A DNA stretch of 11,035 nt from Candidatus Acidulodesulfobacterium acidiphilum (GTDB lineage: Bacteria > SZUA-79 > Acidulodesulfobacterales > Acidulodesulfobacteraceae). The stretch spans positions 1-11,035 of the forward strand of contig SHMQ01000051.1 in the NCBI GenBank assembly GCA_008534395.1, read 5' to 3'. Each line of letters opens with the position of its first letter. Positions within the stretch are counted from its first letter, which is position 1. The position numbers were made by a program, and so were the translations under genes. Positions 7,828 through 10,359 of the stretch are shown here, in pieces. The notes under the pieces are model-generated. The model saw only the letters and a list, made by a program, of their open reading frames with translations, was not told where the DNA came from and ran no database searches.

Positions 7828-8871
7828 TTACCTGTTTTTTACGGCATAAGTATAAGCATTCATAGCGGCGGCGGCGCCTTCGGTAATAGAATCGGAAATA
7901 GCCTTAGGCCCGGTACACGCGCCTGCCAAAAAAACTCCGGGTTTATTAGATTTAAACGGAGAAAGCGTAACGTTTTCCGGCTTTAAAAAACCGTGTTCGT
8001 CAAGTTCGATGCCAAGCTTGCTCGATATTTCGGGAGACTGCGGTCCGCCTTCCATACCGGAAGCAAGAACTACCATATCGAAGGGAATTTCGAACGGCCC
8101 CCTTAAAAGAGTGTCTTCGCCTTTGCATACGACCGTATTATCCGGCCCGGAAGTAATTTCCGCAATTCTGCCTTTAACTATCTGCACGTCATGTTCTTCC
8201 ATAGCTTTCCAGTATAAATCTTCAAAAAAACCGTACGTCCTTATATCCATGTAAAATATATACGCTTCACAGTCCGGAAAATGCTCTCTCATTTCAATAG
8301 CCTGTTTTACGGAAACCGTACAGCAGACTCTGGAACAATACTGGTTTCCTACATGCCTATCCCTTGAGCCTACGCATAAAATAAAGGCTACTTTTTTGGG
8401 CGGCTTGCCGTTAGACGGTCTTACAAAATTATTTTCTCCCATCATTCTTTCAAGGTCTTTTATATCTATAACGTCGTCGAAAAGCTGATAAGAATACTTT
8501 GCGTCTCTTGCCGGATCGAAATGTTCAAAACCCGTCGCAACGATAACGGAATCAAATGTTTTAGTTTCGCTTCCGGAGGCAGACTTTATAACGGCATCAA
8601 ATTTTTTTCCGTTTACTTTAAAATCAGAAATTTCGGAAGAATAATAAACTTTTATGTTACCGCCGGATTCGGTTTTTTTAATAAGCTCCCCTATTACGTT
8701 GTCAGCCGGCTGCATATCGGGAAACAAAAATTTATATTTAAATTTTTTAGGGTTGCCGCCGAGAAAAGAATCTCTTTCGACCAAAGCTACGTTAACTCCC
8801 AATTCTGAAAGCATAACGGCCGCATTCAAACCTGCCGGACCTCCGCCTATCACTAAAATATTTTCAGACAT
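7828..8871 (-). CDS. shdrA: sHdrA, FAD-binding heterodisulfide-reductase-like subunit A
   Basis: This is the flavoprotein core of the sHdr complex, expected to bind FAD and one Fe-S cluster in the cytoplasm. The 347 residues are the short sHdr form: they lack the N-terminal domain and the ferredoxin inserts of methanogen HdrA. The Rossmann dinucleotide motif is VIGGGPAGLNAA at 7-18, followed by VERDSFLGG at 31-39. An ATGFEHFDP segment is at 112-120. The cysteine set is C166VGSRD with C179, C183 and C184 (YCSRVCCTVSVKQA), matching the cluster motif of HdrA proteins. A second FAD contact is AGACTGPKAISDSITEGAAAA at 316-336. The start at 8871 is preceded by GGAGG at about 8 nt. Upstream lies a 140-bp gap holding an expanded palindromic repeat with a promoter-like sequence; downstream, shdrH follows after one nucleotide. 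Confidence 0.93.
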   Translation of the reverse strand: MSENILVIGGGPAGLNAAVMLSELGVNVALVERDSFLGGNPKKFKYKFLFPDMQPADNVIGELIKKTESGGNIKVYYSSEISDFKVNGKKFDAVIKSASGSETKTFDSVIVATGFEHFDPARDAKYSYQLFDDVIDIKDLERMMGENNFVRPSNGKPPKKVAFILCVGSRDRHVGNQYCSRVCCTVSVKQAIEMREHFPDCEAYIFYMDIRTYGFFEDLYWKAMEEHDVQIVKGRIAEITSGPDNTVVCKGEDTLLRGPFEIPFDMVVLASGMEGGPQSPEISSKLGIELDEHGFLKPENVTLSPFKSNKPGVFLAGACTGPKAISDSITEGAAAAMNAYTYAVKNR

Positions 8872-8927
8872 AAAACATCCTCCATTAAATCGCCGTGTTA
8901 TTTAATATTAATTAATCTTTTTATTTT

Positions 8928-9009
8928 GTCATTCCTGCATATATTTTATCTTTGTCTGCATCATTGTCAAGGCAAGCCGTTGGCGCAGACAAAGATTGCA
9001 GGAATCCAG
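8928..9009. repeat. Expanded palindromic repeat (copy 1) between shdrB1 and shdrA
   Basis: The element is an 82-bp composite palindrome. The outer arms are ATTCCTGCA (8931-8939) and TGCAGGAAT (8997-9005), 9 of 9 paired. The inner arms are ATCTTTGTCTGC (8948-8959) and GCAGACAAAGAT (8985-8996), 12 of 12 paired. On the right the arms are contiguous; on the left an 8-nt A/T bulge (8940-8947) separates them. The loop is 25 nt. The GTC/CCAG outer flanks match the two short copies upstream, so this looks like the same repeat with an insert. It starts 2 nt after the shdrB1 stop. No T-run follows the hairpin on either strand, so a canonical intrinsic terminator is unlikely. Confidence 0.85.
8943..8970 (-). 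promoter_or_regulatory. Candidate sigma-70 promoter inside the repeat, reading into shdrA
   Basis: On the minus strand there is an exact TTGACA (8970-8965), a 16-nt spacer, and TAAAAT (8948-8943; 5 of 6 to consensus). The -35 box lies in the hairpin loop and the -10 box covers most of the bulge. A start near 8936 would give a leader of about 65 nt before shdrA. It could provide separate expression of shdrA-H-C2-B2. Sequence match only. Confidence 0.45.
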
Positions 9010-9011
9010 TT

Positions 9012-10214
9012 TTAACTCTTTGGATATTCGTATAAATTAACGGTTTTTCCGCCAGCTTTAAGTTCTTCTAGATACGCATTATATTCTTGTTCGGATTTTT
9101 TCCAGTCTATTCCTATTTTTTCGCATAGAGGCCTCCAATCCGTAGTATGCCATTGAAGTTGGACGATTTTAAAAACGTCCGCGCCGCATGTCAACGCCGC
9201 AAACATAACGTCCGCCATAACGGGAACTTGCTCCGTGTAGCCCATAGCTTTTCCTATCCACTGGTTTTTATCCAATGTAGTGGTGCATCCCGTATCCTGA
9301 GTAATACAGACGTCAGAATGGGCTTCCCTGACCATCGGCCTTATTTTTCTGTCCATTACGAAAGACCTGGACGCTTCCCTTTCCGTCAATATATGCCTGA
9401 AACCAAAACCGCAGCAATCGTACCATGTAGAATAATCAGCCACCTGCGCTCCTAGGGCAAGCATTACTCCGGTAGAAACGGCGGTTCTTTTCCCCGCATA
9501 TATGTCTTTGTCGTAAATGCAGTCTTCCGGAATCATTTTATATGTATGGCAGGCAGGATGAACCGTCGCAATAATATTACTTAAGTCATATTTTTTTAAC
9601 TTTGCTATTTCAAACCGCATAACATGTACCCATTCGCTGTAATGCACTATATATTCGGGGATAACTAAATCCCTGCCTATTTTATGCATAATTCTGCGCA
9701 CTTCGTCGCGTAGTTCTTTATTTTCGACGAGTAAATTTCTCATTTCTTTATAATCGCCAAAAGTAGTAGCACAGTGAAAAAGCGGAAATAAACCTAGTTC
9801 GTATGCCCTGTGCCAGTTTCTTACGGCGACGGCGGCAAGCCCGACAGGATTAGATGTTCCCGACCCGTGATAATTCCAAGCGGTGCATGACGTCTGGTTT
9901 CTTTCATCTACGTATTCGATGCCCATCTGATTCATAAACCACAACAGAGACACGGGATATCCCGGAATATTGCCGCACTGTCCGCATGATTTGTGATGCC
10001 ATAATTTATTTGTGGGGATTTTTTTCTTCCAGCCTAATAGAGTTTCGGCTTCTATAGGTTTATTTTCTTCTTTTATGTGTATTACCTTAACCTCGCCTTT
10101 TGCTTCAAGTTCAAGAAGTCTTTCATGTATATCTTCAAGTTTTCTTCCTGCGGTGTGAATATAATTAGATTTTACGTTTGCAAGACCGAGCCTGTTGCTA
10201 ATTTCTACAGCCAT
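9012..10214 (-). CDS. shdrB1: sHdrB1, heterodisulfide-reductase-like subunit B with altered CCG motifs
   Basis: This HdrB-related subunit of the sHdr complex partners with sHdrC1. It is longer (400 residues) than sHdrB2, mainly through about 70 extra N-terminal residues and a C-terminal tail. The first CCG motif is incomplete: C77-X31-S109C110-X37-C148, so one cysteine of the CC pair is Ser and no CxxC closes the motif (C80 sits in a CGQC start). The second is C222-X44-C267C268 followed by C303 and DTGC310, where the usual CxxC is replaced by an Asp-x-x-Cys arrangement (D307 and C310). It may therefore bind one modified cluster rather than two canonical ones. The start at 10214 has AAGGAGA about 8 nt upstream. 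Palindromic repeats lie directly on both sides of the gene. Assignment as B1 rests on gene order and this degenerate pattern. Confidence 0.87.
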   Translation of the reverse strand: MAVEISNRLGLANVKSNYIHTAGRKLEDIHERLLELEAKGEVKVIHIKEENKPIEAETLLGWKKKIPTNKLWHHKSCGQCGNIPGYPVSLLWFMNQMGIEYVDERNQTSCTAWNYHGSGTSNPVGLAAVAVRNWHRAYELGLFPLFHCATTFGDYKEMRNLLVENKELRDEVRRIMHKIGRDLVIPEYIVHYSEWVHVMRFEIAKLKKYDLSNIIATVHPACHTYKMIPEDCIYDKDIYAGKRTAVSTGVMLALGAQVADYSTWYDCCGFGFRHILTEREASRSFVMDRKIRPMVREAHSDVCITQDTGCTTTLDKNQWIGKAMGYTEQVPVMADVMFAALTCGADVFKIVQLQWHTTDWRPLCEKIGIDWKKSEQEYNAYLEELKAGGKTVNLYEYPKS

Positions 10215-10232: not shown

Positions 10233-10258
10233 CTGGATTCCCGTCTGCGCGGGAATGA
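10233..10258. repeat. Short palindromic repeat, copy 2
   Basis: A 26-bp core with stem ATTCCCG/CGGGAAT (10237-10243 with 10250-10256) and a 6-nt loop. It is in inverted orientation to copy 3, with 23 of 26 bases identical when one is reverse-complemented. It sits a few nt upstream of the shdrB1 ribosome binding site (10222-10228), so an RNA hairpin here would be in the leader of shdrB1. Confidence 0.85.
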
Positions 10259-10333
10259 CTAAACTTTAATTTAAATATTTACCTTATTTTATAATTCCGG
10301 TCTTTTCTTTATTATTCCCCCATGCTTATTTTA

Positions 10334-10359
10334 TCATTCCTACGCAGGCGGGAATCCAG
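10334..10359. repeat. Short palindromic repeat, copy 3
   Basis: This is the inverted partner of copy 2, 75 bp away and 35 bp after the shdrC1 stop at 10394. The stem ATTCCT/GGGAAT (10336-10341 with 1050-series bases 10350-10355) contains one G-T wobble and has an 8-nt loop. The three differences from copy 2 are all transitions. Two inverted copies at this distance resemble a REPIN-type doublet and could also pair with each other into one long hairpin. Confidence 0.8.

Follow-up and report, generated by a model that had tools for sequence, protein, structure and literature searches.

The window, by which we mean the whole 11,035-nucleotide stretch analyzed here (contig C51 of a 2,093,156-base genome), carries an sHdr operon on its minus strand with the gene order shdrC1, shdrB1, shdrA, a hypothetical gene, shdrC2 and shdrB2; these names follow the first-pass annotation and the gene order, and family searches by themselves say only Hdr-like. 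An 82-base palindrome (8928–9009) sits in the shdrB1–shdrA gap, directly 3′ of the shdrB1 stop codon. It is a nested element, in which an outer REP-type stem bears at its tip a second hairpin of ~54 nt that replaces a 4-nt loop, and about 58 nt lie between the outer arms of this copy. The palindromes and the two promoter-like boxes described by the first-pass annotation are found in the sequence and by a site scan, as are the short relatives of the outer arms that it had pointed out upstream in the operon. The parts are as follows.

8926–9011, minus strand: whole nested element, matched by covariance model R3 at 71.8 bits (E 9e-15 in its own genome), the junction copy itself being among the sequences used to build the covariance models
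8931–9005, minus strand: outer stem of 8 bp, with arms ATTCCTGC (8931–8938) and GCAGGAAT (8998–9005), from the sequence and the published CGTC-1/dRS3 description
8927–8930, plus strand: TGTC tag at the foot of the outer stem, an accepted variant of CGTC, from the sequence and tag counts
9006–9009, plus strand: CCAG tail at the opposite foot, from the sequence and the CCA tail of the published description
8948–8996, minus strand: inner hairpin with perfect 12-bp arms (8948–8959 and 8985–8996) and an apex with a shorter stem and a 3′ bulge, from the sequence and covariation over 44 copies
8965–8970, minus strand: TTGACA, −35-like, which is the family's conserved TTGAYA apex, from the site scan and alignment
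8943–8948, minus strand: TAAAAT, −10-like, 16 nt downstream of TTGACA, from the site scan
8943–8949, minus strand: ATAAAAT, a 7-nt insertion relative to two other long alleles, its placement ambiguous by a few bases, from alignment A5
8879–8883, minus strand: GGAGG, the ribosome-binding site of shdrA (start codon at 8871), from the sequence
10233–10259 and 10333–10359, unstranded: a head-to-head pair of short REPs in the shdrC1–shdrB1 gap, from the sequence

On the operon strand, the RNA fold of the junction element reaches −30.3 kcal/mol (z −6.0), a value that none of 200 shuffles equals, and the palindrome is far beyond chance. The promoter-like boxes are interwoven with this fold: the −35 is formed by the apical hairpin's 3′ arm together with a single bulge base, the spacer crosses the arm of the inner stem, and the −10, whose first base is the last of that arm, occupies the 3′ bulge adjoining the outer stem. 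After the stem comes an A-rich stretch instead of a U-tract, and the element is absent from the scan for intrinsic terminators; lacking the U-tract, the hairpin is unlikely to terminate transcription, and a terminator reading was ruled out on this ground. In the neighboring gap, the pair of short REPs (10233–10359) folds as a single long hairpin.

Judged by its sequence, the outer part fits the description of CGTC-1 REPs, which have a CGTC tag (TGTC and CCTC being accepted), an 8-bp stem starting with AT, a 4-nt loop and a CCA tail (PMC3733652); the neisserial members are the dRS3 repeats (PMC3733652; PMC3898611). The junction copy shows the TGTC form of the tag, an 8-bp stem that opens with A and T, and the tail; over 84 contexts the tags were CTGG, read at the other end (35), TGTC (31), AGTC (7) and CGTC (2). 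It departs from the description in its loop, which is 4 nt in the orthologues of G005 and G009. Since members with other loop lengths were noted in the published CGTC-1 survey (PMC3733652), we call the long form a variant.

The inner hairpin is a member of a repeat family. In the genome search for the element that the first-pass annotation had proposed, BLAST of the 141-bp junction region against its own genome returned itself alone, and patterns and covariance models were therefore required, the model locating ten places at E ≤ 1e-3 (eleven matches, one of them an opposite-strand reading). A second long copy, at C7:66488–66556, is a hairpin of 69 bp, almost perfect, that shares its outer arms and layout with the junction element; BLAST with this copy gives, at a loose threshold, matches in 30 of the 30 genomes of the organism's family of acid-mine bacteria. 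The covariance model matches 26 of these 30, with 56 matches in G004, and none of 31 genomes from other families, the counts of weak copies resting on such model searches. A degenerate core pattern scanned across 84,980 species found 26 stretches, all in MAG records titled "bacterium", and found none in the viral contigs scanned; phages and plasmids held no match to the element, and no Rfam family scored above its gathering cut-off.

What the family has in common is an apex, CATCAAAGACATGCTTTGATAAACG, flanked by stems that vary in sequence and still pair; ATAT often follows 3′ of the stems, and the outer arms are variable. Across 44 aligned copies (alignment A4), 95.7% of cells are paired, compared with 38–44% in slid controls, and two-sided changes occur in 23 of 26 stem pairs; these counts are inflated because the rows were aligned to the structure and are related to one another, yet clean pair exchange is seen at several positions despite the inflation (e.g., UA 31, CG 11). 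Copies occur also within ATTGC/GCAATGAC palindromes (L060, L090, L110, L114), so that the inner and outer parts look separable. The core hairpin occurs twice in tandem at one place, L084:957–1046 (G008:C33). A literature search for the core sequence returned nothing and yielded no description of an apex-expanded REP; a REP expanded in this way, with a promoter match private to one lineage, would appear to be a variant not described in the literature or libraries searched.

Comparison of the junction with 20 further operons reveals a series of alleles. The long form occupies the orthologous shdrB1–shdrA gap in operons G011b and G008a; a short REP occupies the same spot, with nearly the same flanks, in G005 (GGATTCCTGC-TTTT-GCAGGAATGAC) and G009 (GGATTCCTGC-GCAT-GCAGGAATGAC); the gap is without the repeat in G002, G011a, G011c and G014, and other relatives carry different palindromes there. 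The gene order is unchanged in several relatives that lack the repeat. Compared with G011b, one position of the stem shows a paired change (CG to TA). The long G008a and the short G005 are sister operons in the tree, and a second site, the shdrC1–shdrB1 gap, is long in G005 and short in G009; because sister operons differ and the second site varies as well, changes of form are frequent. The alleles would fit either gain or loss of the inner part. Taken with the family copies, they make the expansion of a mobile-type repeat, an idea the first-pass annotation had raised from the short repeats nearby, well supported. At the second site, it is the first of the window's two short REPs that is long in G005, and G012 has a long hairpin there in reverse. 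Two single bins contain divergent sHdr operons, three in G011 (L142, L144, L148) and two in G008 (L145, L153), and such multiple operons per bin may be paralogues or reflect mixed strains.

Copies inside genes bear on movement of the inner part. The nadB gene of G015 contains, in frame, 57 nt with the core that G001 and G009 lack; this filled/empty pair differs by 57 nt with no clear target duplication, and the insert lies between two protein domains, its 3′ arm using GCGGGAATCC already present in the empty site. We infer that the inner part is mobile. The core hairpin in this L-aspartate oxidase gene (L103:5730–5789, the same place as L187) is reminiscent of Rickettsia palindromic elements (RPE). 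This organism's own genome has a further in-frame copy (L123:1501–1581; C39:7583–7663), in a response regulator of the NtrC type: the inner hairpin, enclosed by an outer repeat of the ATTGC type, falls between the AAA lid and HTH domain.

As to what might have mobilized it, the inner hairpin could be the subterminal end of an IS200/IS605 or RAYT transposon moved by a Y1 transposase, as family hairpins adjoin TnpA/TnpB genes or their remnants in L178, L183 and L184. We regard this as quite improbable, given that the eight loci with the strongest Y1 matches (L160–L167) are without the hairpin, that it occurs at only 3 of 30 TnpB loci, that no Y1 match turned up in G019, G013 and G008, genomes rich in copies, and that its orientation relative to the transposase is inconstant. 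IS605-type TnpA/TnpB neighbors of hairpins were seen in G026 and G022, and in L178 the hairpin overlaps the end of the Y1 gene. Beside this genome's own Y1 gene (L010) lies no family hairpin, unlike the inverted copies by which GTAG REPs flank a RAYT gene, and the tags are CTGG/TGTC rather than GTAG or GTGG. The flanks of IS110 loci contain no dRS3-like repeat; among the RAYT/IS200, TnpB and IS110 genes searched, of which those of Y1 type are few, none could be linked to the hairpin as its mobilizer.

The operon (minus) strand of the element has one promoter-like site, TTGACA (8970–8965) and TAAAAT (8948–8943), which matches the sigma-70 hexamers at 11 of 12 positions, its 16-nt spacing falling within the 16–18 nt range. 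When the element is shuffled, matches of at least 11/12 arise in 0.06% of trials, and when the whole junction is shuffled, in 0.4%. Two other 11/12 sites occur in the window, both within coding regions; TTGACA-17-TAAAAT at 9166–9194 (minus strand), inside the shdrB1 coding region, has an equal score. The −35 reads TTGACA in three long junction alleles, and most family copies have TTGATA there. The −10 falls in the 7-nt ATAAAAT, which both other long alleles lack (alignment A5); the promoter-like sequence thus arose within the repeat, as had been suggested, its −10 in an insertion private to this genome. This copy alone among 42 distinct family copies has an 11/12 site, and none of the 20 other junctions has one. 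Random 7-nt insertions beside the existing TTGACA produce such a match in 11% (64% A+T) to 36% (A/T only) of trials; since they do so this often, an accidental origin is plausible, and it would be compatible with an active site.

The explanation that we favor, and consider fairly probable, is a REP with its loop expanded by a family-restricted hairpin, the promoter look-alike being mainly a by-product. On this reading the element in the shdrB1–shdrA gap is a CGTC-1/dRS3-type REP whose apical loop is expanded by the ~54-nt hairpin repeat. It behaves like a dispersed palindromic repeat whose long and short forms interchange within brief evolutionary spans, and it would be transcribed along with the operon, forming an RNA hairpin between cistrons. 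TTGACA belongs to the conserved inner apex, and in this lineage the A/T-rich insertion placed TAAAAT 16 nt downstream of it. Against a mere by-product, so good a match is rare in shuffles, which leaves room for selection. Moreover, hdrB2 and hdrC2 were among the most abundant transcripts in AP4 Candidatus Acidulodesulfobacterium (Tan et al., 2019; PMC6776010); this abundance would suit a strong downstream unit, the names not being assignable to one operon half here. A bolder version, which strikes us as rather unlikely, would make the inner hairpin an independent mobile element of one acid-mine family that enters the loops of unrelated REPs (ATTCC, ATTGC) and sometimes genes in frame, its apex fixed and its stems changing pairwise, with one copy now serving as a new promoter inside a sulfur-oxidation operon.

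Is the site a working promoter? Transcription would then start at about 8936, and shdrA-H-C2-B2 (H being the hypothetical gene) would be transcribed apart from C1-B1. The rare 11/12 match lies at the right distance from a good shdrA ribosome-binding site, and MITEs with sigma-70-like promoters are documented, e.g., the Correia elements (PMC10969869); yet the match is absent from all 20 other operons compared, its −10 is private to this genome, an equally good match lies within shdrB1, and the score refers to sigma-70 hexamers rather than to this organism's own sigma factors. That the match really starts transcripts seems to us possible but doubtful. The functional, operon-splitting promoter proposed by the first-pass annotation finds no support in the relatives, where two long orthologues are without a good −10, two have the short form only, several are empty with the same gene order, and family-wide only 1 of 42 copies reaches 11/12; at this junction such a promoter is a possible, unconserved prediction. 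To an effect at the RNA level we give about the same limited credence. The hairpin could shield the 3′ end of the C1-B1 message, or RNase III could cut it, leaving the two halves unequal, and the stable fold immediately after shdrB1, the paired change relative to G011b, the tendency of REPs to lie downstream of genes and the capacity of RNase III to process MITE hairpins (PMC10969869) all speak for it; many relatives are without the element or carry other repeats, which argues that the operon does not require it. Far less credible is a conserved cis-regulatory RNA of the sHdr operon (an attenuator or terminator), which has position and structure in its favor and is disfavored because the junctions compared show no conservation; copies at unrelated genes elsewhere, the missing U-tract, and the absence of any Rfam match or terminator-scan hit also count against it. 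A promoter, an RNA-level effect and a repeat origin are mutually compatible, and we rank the repeat with its by-product look-alike first, the real promoter and the RNA-level effect standing level behind it.

One junction thus offers, in close relatives, a natural allelic series comprising no repeat, a short REP, a long REP, and a long REP with a promoter match, which makes promoter birth from a repeat testable allele by allele. It also presents a REP type that can accommodate in its loop a second family of hairpins, one that shows clear paired changes and for which no mobilizer is known.

Among known systems, Correia elements and other promoter-bearing MITEs differ in that no terminal inverted repeats or target duplication are defined here, and in that the promoter match is found in one copy alone. 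RPE are likewise palindromic repeats that also occur in frame within genes (nadB of G015 and the NtrC-type regulator here), but have another sequence, and the copies in this genome are mostly intergenic. GTAG REPs associated with RAYT resemble the present family in being small hairpins with paired stem changes, and this genome has one RAYT-like Y1 gene; however, that gene scores 69.1 against a RAYT-model cut-off of 80, no copy lies near it, and the GTAG tag is missing. The outer part resembles CGTC-1/dRS3 repeats, with which the elements share the TGTC tag, the AT-initial 8-bp stem, the CCA tail, the 4-nt loop of the short forms and the arrangement in head-to-head pairs; copies at C9 and C34 fit the dRS3 formula ATTCCC(N8)GGGAAT and its Nf1-target subtype. 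The long form differs from these repeats in holding, where their 4-nt loop stands, a second hairpin of ~54 nt.
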